A stretch of DNA of 20,113 nucleotides from assembly GCA_001898095.1 (NCBI GenBank), contig MKSH01000018.1, positions 6,417-26,529 on the forward strand, read 5' to 3'. The position numbers and the translations under genes were made by a program. Positions 3,018-18,914 of the stretch are shown here, one piece after another. The notes under the pieces were generated by a model. It was not told the origin of the DNA. It saw only the letters and a list, made by a program, of their open reading frames with translations, and ran no database searches. Within the stretch, counting starts at the first letter, position 1; each line of letters opens with the position of its first letter. This stretch comes from Solirubrobacterales bacterium 70-9 (GTDB taxonomy: Bacteria > Actinomycetota > Thermoleophilia > Solirubrobacterales > 70-9).

Positions 3018-3060
3018 GTTCGCACTTATGGCCGCTATGCGGCCATAAGTGCGAACTCAC
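3014..3060. terminator. Perfect 22-bp bidirectional hairpin between convergent genes
   Basis: The arm 3014-3035 is exactly complementary to 3039-3060, leaving a 3-base loop (TAT). The TGA stop of the glycosyltransferase (3015-3017) lies inside the left arm, and the last base of the TAG stop of the acyl-CoA ligase (3062-3060 on the other strand) is the end of the right arm. The structure is the same on both strands and can stop transcription from either side. It shares GTTCGCACTT with the hairpin at 1087-1129. Confidence 0.85.
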
Positions 3061-9932: not shown

Positions 9933-10310
9933 CTACGGGGTCGCTTCTTCGATCTGCTTGTTGACTTCTTCGGTGATTTCTTTGGACATTTCCTTGCCTT
10001 CTTCAATGCCCTTCTGCGCCTGCGAGTTCGCTTCTTCGATCGCTTCTTCCGCCTTCTTGGCGGCTTCCTTGCCCGCCTTCGAGTCCGATTCTTCGCCCGC
10101 CTTCTTCACTTCTTCCTGCGCCTGATTGGTGGCTTCGCCGACGATCTTTTCGGCCTGTTCGTTGCCCTTTTCGATCTGCTTTTCCACCGTGCTCGCGACG
10201 TCGCTGCTGTCGCTCCCGCACCCCGCAAGCACCCCTCCCGCAAGCGATGCCGCGACGACGAGCGCAAGCACCGTCGCCTTCGAGCCGTACTGACTGAGCC
10301 AACGATTCAT
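9933..10310 (-). CDS. Lipoprotein with long Glu/Lys/Ala-rich helix, 125 aa
   Basis: ATG at 10310 gives a clear lipoprotein signal: MNRWLSQYGSK, a hydrophobic core and the lipobox L-A-G-C with the lipidated Cys at residue 31. The mature part (about 95 residues) is almost entirely charged and alpha-helical (KQIEKGNEQAEKIVGEATNQ and similar heptad-like runs of E/K/A/Q), probably a coiled coil or an extended rod on the outer face of the membrane. No catalytic motif is visible. GGGGGA lies about 8 bases upstream of the start. Glu is nearly always GAA and the GC content is visibly lower than in neighbours. An in-frame extension upstream to 10484 exists but lacks a ribosome-binding site and would bury the signal peptide, so it is rejected. 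Confidence 0.78.
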   Translation of the reverse strand: MNRWLSQYGSKATVLALVVAASLAGGVLAGCGSDSSDVASTVEKQIEKGNEQAEKIVGEATNQAQEEVKKAGEESDSKAGKEAAKKAEEAIEEANSQAQKGIEEGKEMSKEITEEVNKQIEEATP

Positions 10311-10510
10311 CTCTTCTTGTTCCCCCTGCTGAGTTCGAGTGGACTGGGCCGACCGGAGTCGGCGTGCGCGCGCGAACGTAGTCCAGCCAGACGGGCCCGA
10401 CCCGAAAACGCGACCAAGGTGAGACCGTTTCGTGGACGCTTGGCCGGGAGACGATTCGTGGCCCCTGCGGCGGGGACGGCCCACTTCGCGGCGCCTGCGG
10501 CCGGGGACGG

Positions 10511-10576
10511 TCGCGTCCTGGGCGTCTCGTGGCGGCCCGGGCAGGCTGTGGCCGCCACGAGACGCCCAGGACGCGA
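10511..10576. repeat. 27-bp perfect hairpin with 12-base loop (copy A)
   Basis: Bases 10511-10537 are exactly complementary to 10550-10576. The loop 10538-10549 is CGGGCAGGCTGT. The inner stem is CTCGTGGCGGCC. The loop sequence reappears as its exact reverse complement in the loop of the hairpin at 10779-10830. Confidence 0.9.
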
Positions 10577-10617
10577 GGCTTTCGGGGGGAAGTGCGCGGG
10601 GTCGGTCACAGGTATGG

Positions 10618-10671
10618 GGACGCGGTCGACTTTCACCTTGCCAGGGCAGGGTGAAAGTCGAGAGCGCGTCC
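10618..10671. repeat. Interrupted hairpin with GGGCAGG near its tip
   Basis: The outer arm GGACGCG (10618-10624) pairs with CGCGTCC (10665-10671). After a small internal loop (2 and 4 bases) the inner arm starting CGACTTTCACC (10627-10637) pairs with 10650-10660 and continues to a 4-base tip. The tip contains GGGCAGG, as do the loops of the hairpins on either side. Confidence 0.8.
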
Positions 10672-10773
10672 GGACCTCCTTAAGGAACGTGGAGTTCCGC
10701 ACCGATCCCGCGCAGATCGTCACGGATCTCCGCCGGGACCCGCACGGGACGCGCGCCCTCGCCCCTCTCCCCG

Positions 10774-10835
10774 AGGGACGGCCCTCTCGTAGGCGGTCAC
10801 AGCCTGCCCGGACCGCCTACGAGAGGGCCGCGTCC
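10774..10835. repeat. 20-bp perfect hairpin with 12-base loop (copy B, inverted)
   Basis: Bases 10779-10798 are exactly complementary to 10811-10830; the loop 10799-10810 is ACAGCCTGCCCG. The stem extends outward: GGGAC (10774-10778) pairs with GTCCC (10832-10836 region) after a short bulge. On the - strand the inner stem reads CTCGTAGGCGGTC, a one-pair-longer variant of copy A's inner stem, and the loop is identical to that of copy A. Confidence 0.85.
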
Positions 10836-10918
10836 CTTGGTCGTCCCTTACCCGCCCCTCCGCGTCCCTCCGCGCCCCCGCCAACCCCCGCCACGACCCG
10901 CTGCGGTACTACTGCTCG

Positions 10919-11764
10919 ATGCTTGCAGCGGCGCTCGCCCTCGCCTCGGCGCTCTCCTACGGGGTCTCGGACTACATCGGCGGGGTCTTCAGCAAGACCC
11001 GCTCGGTCTGGAGCGTCGCGGCCGCGAGCCAGCTGACCGCCGGCCTGGGGACGGCGGTGGTCGCGATCTTCGTTCCCGGCGATCCCGGGGCGGCCGACTT
11101 CGCCTGGGGCGCGCTTGCCGGGCTCGGCGGGGCCTTCGGGATCATCTTCCTCTACCGCGGATTGAGCCGCGGGCGGATGAGCGTGGTCGCGCCGATCTCG
11201 GGGATCGGTGCGGCGGTGATCCCGGTGGTGGTCGGGATCGCGAGCGGTGAGCGGCCGACGCTGTTGATCTGGCTCGGGATCGCGATCGCCTTCCCGGCGA
11301 TCTACCTGATCCCCCAGGTCGACCCCGAGGAGGAAGCCCACGGCGGCCCGCCGCGGCCGAGCGCCGCCTCCGACGGGGTCCTCGCCGGGATCGGGTTCGG
11401 GGTCATCTTCGCCGCGGTCGGGCAGATGGGCGAAGGGTCGGGATTCCTACCGCTGTCGCTGGTGCAGGTGGTGAACGGCAGCGCCGTCGTCCTGGCGGCC
11501 ATCTTGCTTCGCCAGCAGTGGGTACCGCGCGGGCGACGTGATCTTCCCGTCTTCGCCTTCGGCCTCCTCTCGACCGCCGCGATGGTCTTCTTCCTGCTCG
11601 CCACCCGTCACGGCCTGCTCAGCGTGGTCTCGGTGATCGCCTCGCTCTACCCGGCCAGCACGGTGGCGATGGCGGCGGCCCTCCTCGACGAGCGGCTCGC
11701 GCGGCTGCAGATCGTCGGCCTCGCCCTCGCCGCGGTGGCGGTGGTGCTGATCACGCTGGGCTAG
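10919..11764 (+). CDS. EamA/DMT-family transporter
   Basis: A 281-residue polytopic membrane protein with about ten hydrophobic helices in two five-helix halves, as in the drug/metabolite transporter superfamily. The first half starts LALASALSYGVSDYIGGVFS and has the YRGLSRGRMSVVAPISG region typical of EamA domains. A charged loop (PEEEAHGGPPRPSAASDG) separates the halves. The second ends SVIASLYPASTVAMAAALLD-ERL, the usual EamA C-terminal signature. It exports or imports a small metabolite that cannot be named from sequence. No Shine-Dalgarno sequence precedes ATG 10919; TACTAC (10907-10912) 6 bases upstream may be the -10 box of a leaderless transcript. The stop overlaps a TAGGTT box that could serve the next gene. 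Confidence 0.88.
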   Translation: MLAAALALASALSYGVSDYIGGVFSKTRSVWSVAAASQLTAGLGTAVVAIFVPGDPGAADFAWGALAGLGGAFGIIFLYRGLSRGRMSVVAPISGIGAAVIPVVVGIASGERPTLLIWLGIAIAFPAIYLIPQVDPEEEAHGGPPRPSAASDGVLAGIGFGVIFAAVGQMGEGSGFLPLSLVQVVNGSAVVLAAILLRQQWVPRGRRDLPVFAFGLLSTAAMVFFLLATRHGLLSVVSVIASLYPASTVAMAAALLDERLARLQIVGLALAAVAVVLITLG

Positions 11765-16212: not shown

Positions 16213-17244
16213 TCAGCCGCCCGCACCCAACTTCGCCCGGATCGTGCGTGGTCGGAGCCCGACCTGGTCGATCAGCACCGCGAGGACCAGGATCAGGCCG
16301 GTGACCACCTGCTGCCAGAAGCTCTGCACGCCGGCGATCGAAAGGCCATTCTGCAGCACGCCGATGAACAGCACCCCGATCGCGGTGCCGCCGACCCCGC
16401 CGGTGCCGCCGCTGAGGCTGGTGCCGCCGAGCAGCACCGCGGCGATCGCCTGCAGCGGCAGGTTGACGTCGACGGTCGGCGCCGCGACCCCGATGCGGCC
16501 GATCGAGATGATGCTGCCCAAGGTCGCGCAGAGCGCGGTGACGCCGTAGACGCCCATGATCGTCCACGAGGTGCGGATCCCGGAGAGCCGGGCCGCGGTG
16601 AGGCTGCCACCGACCGCGTAGACGTGTCGCCCGAAGAACGTCCATTGCTGCACGTAGATGGCGACCACCAACGTCCCGATCATGATCCAGATCGGCGCCG
16701 GCAGGCCCGCGTAGGTGTCGATCCCGAGGGCCGCCGGGACGCTCGATTCGACGATGAAGGACTCGGTTCCGGACCAGAGGTTGACGACGCCGGTGAAGGC
16801 GATCATCGAGGCCAGGGTGACGACGAAGAAGGAGAGCCCGAGCCGGCCGATCAGCGGCCCGTTGATCAGGAAGCCGATCGCCAAGCCGAAGAGGAGCGTG
16901 ACGGCGAGGGCGGGCCAGCCGGAGAGTCCCGCGTCGATCAGTTTGGCGAAGAGGATCCCGGTCAGCGCCGCGATCGCCCCGACCGAGAGGTCGGCTCCGG
17001 CGGTGAGGACGACGAAGGTCATCCCGAGGCTGACCACCCAGAGGACGGAAATCGCGGTCAGCATGTTCTGCATGTTGGTCCAGGTGGCGAAGCCCGATTG
17101 GGTGATCGCCAGGACCACGAACAAGACCACGGTGACCCCGAGGACGGGCCGGAAGTGCCGGGTCGCCCCCCAGCCGCGCTGCAGGGCCGAGTGCATCACC
17201 TCCCCGCCGGTGGAGTCGAGCGGCGGAGCTGAGACGGAGTTCAT
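16213..17244 (-). CDS. Ribose-type ABC transporter permease (RbsC-like)
   Basis: A 343-residue integral membrane protein with about 8-10 helices of the BPD_transp_2 family. Typical parts are FRPVLGVTVVLFVVLAITQS at the N-terminus, MTFVVLTAGADLSVGAIAAL (the conserved 'VI.tGgiDLSVG' motif, here with TAGADLSVG), FFVVTLASMIAFTGVVNLWS, GRHVYAVGGSLTAARLSGIR (the 'G..iyAiGgN..AA.lsGI' coupling loop) and LLGGTSLSGGTGGVGGTAIG. It forms the channel of an importer for a sugar or another small polar compound, with the ATPase encoded immediately upstream. Start ATG 17244 has GGAGGG 8 bases upstream and overlaps the ATPase stop (ATGA). The usual periplasmic-type binding protein is not in the window. Confidence 0.9.
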   Translation of the reverse strand: MNSVSAPPLDSTGGEVMHSALQRGWGATRHFRPVLGVTVVLFVVLAITQSGFATWTNMQNMLTAISVLWVVSLGMTFVVLTAGADLSVGAIAALTGILFAKLIDAGLSGWPALAVTLLFGLAIGFLINGPLIGRLGLSFFVVTLASMIAFTGVVNLWSGTESFIVESSVPAALGIDTYAGLPAPIWIMIGTLVVAIYVQQWTFFGRHVYAVGGSLTAARLSGIRTSWTIMGVYGVTALCATLGSIISIGRIGVAAPTVDVNLPLQAIAAVLLGGTSLSGGTGGVGGTAIGVLFIGVLQNGLSIAGVQSFWQQVVTGLILVLAVLIDQVGLRPRTIRAKLGAGG

Positions 17245-18833
17245 GATGAGGTCCCTCCAGATAGTCGTGCGAGTTCGATCTCGCTCGCGGCTTCCGCCGT
17301 GAGCACGCTGACGATTTCCCCCCGGTACATGACGAGGATGCGGTCGCAGAGGCCGAGCAGCTCCTCGTTCTCGGAGCTGCTGACCAGGAGCCCCATGCCC
17401 TGGTCCGCCAGTTCCTTGAGGAGGGCGTGGATCTCGGCCTTGGCGCGGACGTCGACCCCGCGGGTCGGCTCCTCGAGCAGCAGCAGGCGCGGGTTGTTGA
17501 CGAGCCACTTGCCGAGCGCGACCTTCTGCTGGTTGCCGCCGGAGAGGGTGCCGACCAGGGACCCGGGCGAGGCCGCTTTGATCCGCAGGGTGCTCATCGT
17601 CTGGGCCAGCCCCTCGGCCTGTCGCCGGCGCTGGGGACGGCGCCACCAGGGCAGGCTGCTGGAGTGCGCCATGGTCAGGTTGTCGAGCACGCTCATCGTC
17701 AGGACGACGCCGTCGGCCTTGCGTTCGGCCGGGACGAAGCCGATCCCGGCGGCGATCGCCCGGCCGGGGCTCGGCCGGGACAGCTCCTCGCCATCGATGA
17801 AGATCGAGCCGGCGGCCATCGGCCGGGCGCCGAAGATCAGCTCCAACAGCTCGCTGCGGCCCGAGCCCGCCAGGCCCGCGACGCCGACGATCTCGGCCGG
17901 GGCTACCTCAAGGTCGGTCGCCCGGACCCCCAGCCCGTCGCCCAGCCCTTCGACCCGCAGCCGCGGCACACCCGCGACGCCGCTGCCGGTGCGATGGGTG
18001 CGGACGATCTCGCTCTCCGGTTCGCCGACCATGTCGTGGACGATCCGGCCGGAGTCGTACTCGCCGATCGGGCCGTTGCTGACCGTGCTGCCGTCGCGCA
18101 GGACGGTCAGCTCGTCGGCGATCTCGAACAGCTCGGGCAGGCGGTGGGAGACGAAGATGGTCGAGACGCCGCGGCTCGACAAGTCGCGGACGGCCTGGAA
18201 GAGACGTTCGACCTCGTCTTCGGAGAGGAAGCTGGTCGGCTCGTCGAGGATCAGGACCTTGGCGTCGATCGAGACGGCGCGGGCGATCTCGACCATCTGC
18301 TGCTGGTCCGGTCGAAGGCGGCCGACCTTCGCCTCGACGTCGTAGTCGAGCTTCAGCCAGTCGAGCACCTCCTTGGCGCGGCGCCGGGTGGCGGCCCAGT
18401 CGATCCGCCCGTGGCGGCGGATGAGGCGGGCGCCGAGCAGGATGTTCTCGGCGACCGAGAGGTCACGCGCGACCGCGGTCTCCTGGGAGACCATCGCGAT
18501 GCCGGCCTTGACCGCGGCGGGCGGATGGCCGAAGGAGACCGACTCGCCCTCGAGTCGGACCTCGCCCGCGTCGGGCTGCACCTGTCCGGAGAGGACTCCG
18601 AGCATCGTCGACTTGCCCGAGCCGTTCTCGCCGACCAGGCAGTGGACGACCCCCGGCCTGGTCAGCGACAGGGTGGCACCGCGCAGGGCATGGACGCCGC
18701 CAAAACGTTTGTCGAGGCCCTTGACCTCGAGGACCGGGGCACCCGCCCGTCCGGCGCCGCCGCCCTTCGCGGCAGCGGAGGCGACGACCGCCGGGGCCGC
18801 GCCGCCGGGGGCATATTTCCCTCTCGTATCCAA
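17241..18833 (-). CDS. Ribose-type ABC transporter ATPase (RbsA/MglA-like)
   Basis: A double ATP-binding subunit of about 530 residues. Domain 1 has Walker A GENGSGKST (68-76), a signature region LRPDQQQMVEIARA (from 173; unusual against the common LS.GQQQ) and Walker B VLILDEPT (193-200). Domain 2 has the degenerate Walker A GLAGSGRSE (320-328) typical of this subfamily, the signature LSGGNQQK (430-437) and Walker B LLLLEEPT (450-457). It powers the permease downstream. The start is uncertain: TTG 18833 lies 8 bases after a TAGGGT -10 box, while an ATG at 18893 would add 20 residues with codons unlike the rest of the gene. A well-placed ATG with GAGAGGG at 18814 is out of frame by one base. 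The first 25-30 residues are low complexity in any case. Confidence 0.88.
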   Translation of the reverse strand: MDTRGKYAPGGAAPAVVASAAAKGGGAGRAGAPVLEVKGLDKRFGGVHALRGATLSLTRPGVVHCLVGENGSGKSTMLGVLSGQVQPDAGEVRLEGESVSFGHPPAAVKAGIAMVSQETAVARDLSVAENILLGARLIRRHGRIDWAATRRRAKEVLDWLKLDYDVEAKVGRLRPDQQQMVEIARAVSIDAKVLILDEPTSFLSEDEVERLFQAVRDLSSRGVSTIFVSHRLPELFEIADELTVLRDGSTVSNGPIGEYDSGRIVHDMVGEPESEIVRTHRTGSGVAGVPRLRVEGLGDGLGVRATDLEVAPAEIVGVAGLAGSGRSELLELIFGARPMAAGSIFIDGEELSRPSPGRAIAAGIGFVPAERKADGVVLTMSVLDNLTMAHSSSLPWWRRPQRRRQAEGLAQTMSTLRIKAASPGSLVGTLSGGNQQKVALGKWLVNNPRLLLLEEPTRGVDVRAKAEIHALLKELADQGMGLLVSSSENEELLGLCDRILVMYRGEIVSVLTAEAASEIELARLSGGTSS

Positions 18834-18841
18834 CCCGCCCG

Positions 18842-18870
18842 ACCCTACTTTCGGCGATCTGGCCCAACAA
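18842..18870 (-). promoter_or_regulatory. Putative promoter of the ABC transporter operon
   Basis: On the - strand TTGTTG (18870-18865), 17 bases, TAGGGT (18847-18842). The -10 box ends 8 bases before TTG 18833, the same geometry as at 1169-1183. An inverted repeat GCATAG/CTATGC (18890-18895 and 18904-18909) lies just upstream and may be an operator or part of the preceding terminator. Confidence 0.4.
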
Positions 18871-18914
18871 ATCCGGATGCGGGTCTCACGCATAGGCGTC
18901 GGGCTATGCCCTCG

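Follow-up and report, generated by a model that had tools for sequence, protein, structure and literature searches.

The window analysed here is the whole 20,113-nt stretch of DNA, and its assembly of origin (the source genome, G000) comprises 4.2 Mb on 278 contigs, with a completeness of 84% and a contamination of 5.7%. In this window a gap flanked by two genes called as divergent is occupied by two long hairpins, which frame an element with the following features:

10455..10514, no strand: two direct copies of a unit of about 30 nt (TTCG..CCTGCGG..GGGGACGG..), outside hairpin A, read by eye
10511..10576, minus strand (model strand): framing hairpin A, 27 bp, arms 10511-10537 and 10550-10576, loop 10538-10549
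10577..10778, no strand: element body between the framing hairpins, of no known family
10627..10662, no strand: inner palindrome TCGACTTTCACCTTGC-CAGG-GCAGGGTGAAAGTCGA, 15 bp with 1 mismatch, one of many exchangeable inner palindromes
10779..10830, plus strand (model strand): framing hairpin B, 20 bp, arms 10779-10798 and 10811-10830, loop 10799-10810
10831..10877, plus strand: outer flank of B, rich in C, in which GTCCCTT / GTCCCT recurs

Each hairpin, taken on its model strand, is in the sense of the adjoining gene. The gene calls come from a purpose-written script rather than standard software; this script puts the start of the left-hand gene at 10187, although there is an in-frame ATG at 10310. 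Units resembling the 30-nt one are present outside A in other copies of the source genome too, and GTCCCTT also follows B in other copies.

A reading made from the sequence alone had proposed two perfect hairpins of 27 and 20 bp, and an inverted-repeat search found exactly these: the arms of A (27 nt) and of B (20 nt) are 100% complementary with 12 nt between them in both cases, and A and B, compared with one another, make up an inverted repeat of 26 nt (92%). On the sequence itself the loops are CGGGCAGGCTGT and its exact reverse complement, as had been read; the loop of A on the model (minus) strand is ACAGCCTGCCCG, and the inner stems of A and B differ by the one inserted pair and the one C-G to T-A change described there. 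A covariance model scored A at 76.9 bits on the minus strand (48.4 on the plus strand) and B at 76.8 bits on the plus strand (44.6 on the minus strand). Predicted RNA folds had z values of -9.6 (A, plus strand), -8.6 (B, minus strand) and -7.9 (B, plus strand), with 0 of 200 shuffles as stable as the real fold in each case, and in four loci 20 hairpins of at least 14 bp were counted vs 1 in mononucleotide-shuffled sequence. Two things had escaped the first reading, namely a third hairpin between A and B (10610-10677, arms 76% complementary, fold z -5.9) and the fact that the pair is just one member of a family whose loop has 180 exact matches in the genome. No Rfam family reached its gathering score in the window; the matches below threshold were long-hairpin microRNA-type and similar ones only.

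The loop 12-mer is found 92 times forward and 88 times in reverse in the source genome (reversed-pattern control 1+0), which bears out the proposal of a palindromic repeat family with many copies. Exact totals over both strands are 212 in G009, 180 in G000, 57 in G003, 49 in G006, 24 in G008 and 16 in G007, while the remaining six of the 12 genomes of the genus hold 0-3 each; the pair is thus no one-off, the loop being abundant in half of the 12 genomes. Across 89 genomes from outside the genus the 12-mer has 0-6 matches per genome, close to the reversed control (0-4). A covariance model built from 80 hairpins was run on the order and the class with stricter filters and an upper limit to the matches scored per genome. 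Among the 232 genomes of the order, each of the six element-rich ones gave at least 23 matches, the other 226 giving three weak matches (E 0.006-0.01), and in 399 genomes of the class there were matches in four members of the same genus and in one other genome (G243, weak, E 2.3e-4). At least 78 contig stretches carried copies, and among the matches listed all were MAGs labelled Actinomycetota SZAS-14, SZAS-10 or Solirubrobacterales RYN_247. Neither did plasmid and phage records give a blastn match to the element, nor viral contigs an exact match to one element pattern. RpoB was found in 7 of the 12 genus genomes, and its tree splits three element-rich from four element-free species with 99/99 support; genome sizes are 3.8-4.7 Mb for element-rich vs 2.4-3.4 Mb for element-free members. 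The family is therefore lineage-restricted: the six species in which it abounds all belong to a single uncultured genus of actinobacteria. No description of it was found among the papers listed in the literature searches (open-licence papers only).

The anatomy of the element was taken from 120 stretches of six genomes, loci selected for holding copies. Two types of hairpin are told apart by the outer stem, which is GGGCG.. in A and GGCC.. in B; read on the model strand, the loop is ACAGCCTGCC[C/A]G. The 120 stretches hold 215 hairpins, forming 69 outward pairs and 77 singles, 38 of which have no called gene on one side. Among neighbours less than 1 kb apart 69 of 71 face outward (the other two point the same way), in agreement with the inverted, BIME-like arrangement noticed at first reading; 61 of the outward pairs are A+B, 7 include an untyped hairpin and one is B+B. 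Loop-to-loop distances in 27 complete pairs of the source genome are 242-502 nt, and bodies reach 776 nt in G006. Of 67 bodies (two of the 69 were dropped for N runs), 51 contain one or more additional strong palindromes, which between them represent at least ten different sequences; the count after mononucleotide shuffling was 0. One subfamily of 9 copies (458-467 nt) has a mean identity of 99.6% in A, 90.7% in B and 85.8% in the body, and of 41-47% farther out. Since A, B and body are alike but the farther flanks are not, A-body-B behaves as a unit, of which hairpin A is the most conserved part in this subfamily. One inner palindrome of the same 9 copies occurs in two alternative forms at one place.

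At least ten further inner palindrome sequences with short loops (CAGG, CATG, CTATATC, CCATACC and others) were seen, e.g., in L112, L121, L124, L141 and L264, and some of these sequences recur in several elements. In G008, L239 (9853-10436) holds an element with B and without A; judged by eye, the sequence around the missing A reads CTCCGT..CTCGGACGG, like the full copy L236, as if A had dropped out, and such drop-out may be a source of single B hairpins. Many contigs of G009, G007 and other element-rich assemblies end about 100 nt or less from a framing hairpin (e.g., L034, L041, L091, L105), as is expected if element copies break assembly.

Conservation of the folded form was assessed on an alignment of 80 distinct hairpins, chosen by loop pattern. 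In it 93.3% of cells are paired vs 81.2% after shuffling, changes on both sides occur in 16 of 25 pairs vs 12.2 (0 of 500 shuffles as high), double-change cells number 203 vs 61, and the covariation score is 0.309 vs 0.115 shuffled and at most 0.070 slid. The one-pair deletion of the short A type is misplaced in this alignment, with 37 of 80 rows unpaired at one pair. The earlier view that the fold is preserved with covarying stems is borne out by these values. Invariance of the loop is partly built into this alignment, because its rows were chosen by loop pattern, and the loop was therefore checked by a stem-anchored search without any loop condition. That search gave 342 strand-rows (both strands of one site counted), 328 with a 12-nt loop and 314 with ACAGCCTGCC[C/A]G. 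The loop is thus nearly invariant while the long stems covary.

Stems could also be kept perfect by mutation alone, through template switching in replication (quasipalindrome correction), and the covariation would then be silent on function. The mechanism is described in one paper as one by which hairpins can arise and persist, with compensatory changes of several bases (PMC8794818), and a second palindrome family of the same genomes likewise has inner stems that vary but stay paired. It leaves unexplained, however, the kept loop, the conserved G.T at the third pair together with the excess of one wobble type, and the greater conservation of hairpin A than of the body. We consider it improbable as the whole explanation; it could be the source of part of the covariation, not of the kept loop.

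The wobble excess is as follows. On the model strand, the non-Watson-Crick cells of 181 distinct contexts are G.T in 135 cases vs A.C in 5, and 27 vs 5 without the third pair. In a strand-neutral recount of 108 distinct hairpins from six genomes, the third pair had 32 G.T vs 0 A.C and the other pairs 31 vs 10. An earlier pairing criterion had counted G.T as paired on the model strand (32 vs 12 outside the third pair); with Watson-Crick pairing as the only criterion the bias stays (the 31 vs 10 just given). The p-values are only indicative, because samples overlap and copies are related. Split by the direction of the upstream gene, the bias of the model strand is 18:6 in sense and 8:3 in antisense, and since the former is no stronger than the latter, it does not favour selection on read-through RNA.

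As to location, 101 occupied gaps comprise 57 convergent, 37 tandem and 7 divergent ones, vs 62 convergent, 278 tandem and 176 divergent among the 516 gaps that reach 60 nt and hold no element (Fisher p = 1e-20 for the excess of convergent gaps and 2e-9 for the deficit of divergent ones, the copies being related and the counts not independent). In a first sample of 169 hairpins (49 at edges, 8 untyped but placed), one of 111 with a verdict lies inside a called gene. The median distance from the loop to the 3' end of the facing gene is 65 nt for B (n = 44) and 122 nt for A (n = 47). The family therefore sits behind genes, above all between convergent ones, and the copy in the window is an exception to this.

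For this exceptional copy, one earlier suggestion had been a regulatory RNA, structured and belonging to the divergent promoter, whose loops could kiss over 12 bp. The setting would suit such an RNA, with each model-strand hairpin sense to its neighbour, and in 37 of 69 pairs, including 25 of 28 in the source genome, the partner loops are identical and would therefore be complementary throughout if both were on one RNA. The case for a kissing contact is nevertheless weakened, for it is not strictly kept: loops differ in the other 32, and are identical in only 1 of 14 pairs of G006 and 0 of 4 of G009. A role tied to the divergent promoter is not supported, since only 4 of the 64 pairs that have called genes as neighbours left and right occupy divergent gaps, the window copy among them, and no exact loop motif was present in the 1.5-kb stretch upstream of the 77%-identical EamA gene of G008, on which ground a tie of the element to the EamA gene was also rejected. 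With the lack of an Rfam family at gathering score in the window added, we regard the promoter RNA as very improbable indeed.

A second palindrome family was seen alongside the first. It is 39 nt long, with a constant outer stem GTTCGCA..TGCGAAC and a variable but largely paired inner stem; its cores in the window are 3018-3056 and 1088-1126, and other copies are in G000, G006, G007, G009 and G003. The palindrome at 3018-3056 exactly fills the gap between the end of a glycosyltransferase gene (3017) and the end of an AMP-binding gene (3060). The pattern GTTCGCACTTN{4,28}AAGTGCGAAC has 20 sites in G000, 22 in G009, 14 in G006, 9 in G007 and 2 in G003, and 0 in the other 7 of the 12 genomes (reversed control 0). 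In the fetched loci there are 61 distinct copies, 15 inside A-B elements and 46 outside them (26 convergent, 15 tandem, 2 divergent, 3 at an edge). A further observation concerns the ABC-transporter ATPase encoded at 17241-18893 of the window: with it as query, the six element-rich genomes gave 83-120 matches and five of the element-free genomes 39-60, but G005, also element-free, gave 81. There is a large ABC-transporter expansion in this lineage.

To hypothesize on function, we suggest that converging transcripts carry the element as a folded RNA at their 3' ends, and that ending or insulating these transcripts is its likeliest role. The C-skew of the 43 nt next to each hairpin on its centre side, taken on the model strand, is 0.38 (A) and 0.35 (B), vs a background of 0.01 (sd 0.19), and that of the outer flank is 0.24 for B and 0.05 then 0.21 for A. 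Because of this layout, each convergent transcript meets the G-rich half first, and second the C-rich half with the model-sense hairpin. An entering transcript would take in the near hairpin in reverse sense and after it the inner palindromes; the C-rich stretch and, in model sense, the far hairpin would come last, immediately ahead of the point from which the transcript would continue antisense into the opposing gene. At that point the transcript would be ended or held by the clustered hairpins without a U-tract, with Rho loading on the C-rich stretch perhaps contributing and a factor likely reading the conserved loop of the ACAGCCUGCCCG hairpin. The classical feature of intrinsic terminators, a hairpin and then a T run, is absent: 0 of 215 hairpins are followed by a run of at least 5 T on the model strand (the longest is 4, and 3 on the other strand), and 0 terminator-like sites were found in 10200-11000 of the window. 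Hairpin clusters without poly-U have been claimed as terminators in the literature (PMC8355165). Against a gene-end role count the 37 tandem and 7 divergent gaps of the 101 that are also occupied, and the half of the genus that lives without the element; a selfish element tolerated only behind genes would be expected to have the same location and turnover. Should the gene-end role hold, the element would illustrate how a GC-rich lineage can separate its convergent genes without recourse to terminators of the U-tract type.

The turnover is seen at nine comparable orthologous intervals with the element in at least one species (our own grouping of rows). Four have an element facing a tight gap, namely G008 L236 vs 5 nt in G000 L119, G008 L239 vs 78 nt in G007 L264, G007 L264 vs overlapping gene ends in G008 L239, and G000 L184 vs 175 nt in G003 L234. 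Three are common to species (L175/L167/L252, L192/L166 and L193/L262, the last with opposite single hairpins only), and in two the partner gap is longer and contains neither A nor B (L128/L247 and L128/L160). The family clearly turns over, gain and loss not being separable in pairwise comparison, and target-site duplications are not readable at full and empty sites as the orthologous flanks are too diverged.

What moves the element was sought among four enzyme families: IS200/RAYT Y1, RVT_1, Transposase_20 and rve. The expected RAYT-like transposase did not turn up, PF01797 (IS200/RAYT Y1) being found in 0 of the 12 genus genomes while 5 of 14 control genomes were positive in the same search. 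The other three were rejected as not specific: reverse transcriptase RVT_1 is in 2 of 12 genomes (one element-rich, one element-free), IS110-type Transposase_20 in 4 (two and two), and rve integrase in 10, with 1-4 matches each, i.e., in all six element-rich genomes but also in four of the six without the element. The loci fetched showed no full autonomous copy.

These results bear on the view that the element is solely a REPIN-like miniature mobile element, whose hairpins would be single-stranded DNA handles for an enzyme and for which gene ends would be the least harmful place of insertion. The copy number uneven within one genus, the unit behaviour with unrelated flanks and the full and empty sites all suit it, as do the inverted doublets known from REPINs (PMC3116915), and the wobble bias is equally readable as single-stranded DNA. 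The enzyme is the difficulty, since PF01797 is lacking in all 12 genomes, RVT_1 and Transposase_20 do not follow the element, rve is not confined to element-rich genomes and no autonomous copy came to light. We hold this view to be possible, though rather on the doubtful side. The proposal that we prefer, a gene-end folded-RNA element whose A-body-B unit would be spread, as non-autonomous DNA, by some machinery other than that of the IS200/RAYT type, is put forward tentatively, at somewhat less than an even chance. It is unlikely, though worth stating, that the family is a new class of bacterial miniature mobile element with a bipartite folded frame, which would use the 12-nt loop as a signal for its copying machine, gather other palindromes inside its A-B frame and build gene-end modules insulating convergent genes.

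Compared with ordinary terminators, the element has a conserved loop, dispersal as a unit and a fixed A/B geometry, which are not known as traits of such terminators. With U-tract-free and bidirectional terminators it shares strong hairpins, often several, behind stop codons, poly-U being reported as unnecessary (PMC8355165). The closest likeness is to REP, BIME and REPIN sequences, which are described as intergenic palindromes, in inverted doublets, near gene 3' ends (PMC3733652, PMC3116915, PMC12306157). Shared with them are the many extragenic palindromic copies (180 exact loops in G000, 212 in G009), the inverted doublets (69 of 71 neighbours here), the position mostly between convergent or same-direction genes near their 3' ends, and G-T pairs in the stems (PMC3733652, PMC3116915). 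Unlike GTAG-class REPs, with stems of 5-13 bp, the element in the window has stems of 20-27 bp; moreover, there is no Y1/RAYT gene in the 12 genomes, no GTAG beside the stem in the ungapped consensus of G000, G006 and G009 copies, and the element has a conserved 12-nt loop and hundreds of nt with further palindromes between its two hairpins. CGTC-class REPs, reported as being without a transposase of their own (PMC3733652, PMC3116915, PMC12306157), resemble it as palindromes without a linked transposase, but have a stem of 8-9 bp and a loop of 4-5 nt where the element has 20-27 bp and 12 nt (PMC3733652). Several REP classes are explained by RAYT transposases, and a REP-like, inverted, high-copy element in a clade where no Y1 transposase was found makes the spread of such repeats a concrete question. 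In addition, hundreds of copies per genome with covariation within one genome are a natural data set for weighing selection via G-U steps against template switching. Because no RAYT was found and the stem length and tag differ, we do not class the element as a REP, although it behaves in the manner of a REP doublet; its likeness to REP and BIME sequences is one of behaviour, with defining features of REPs lacking.
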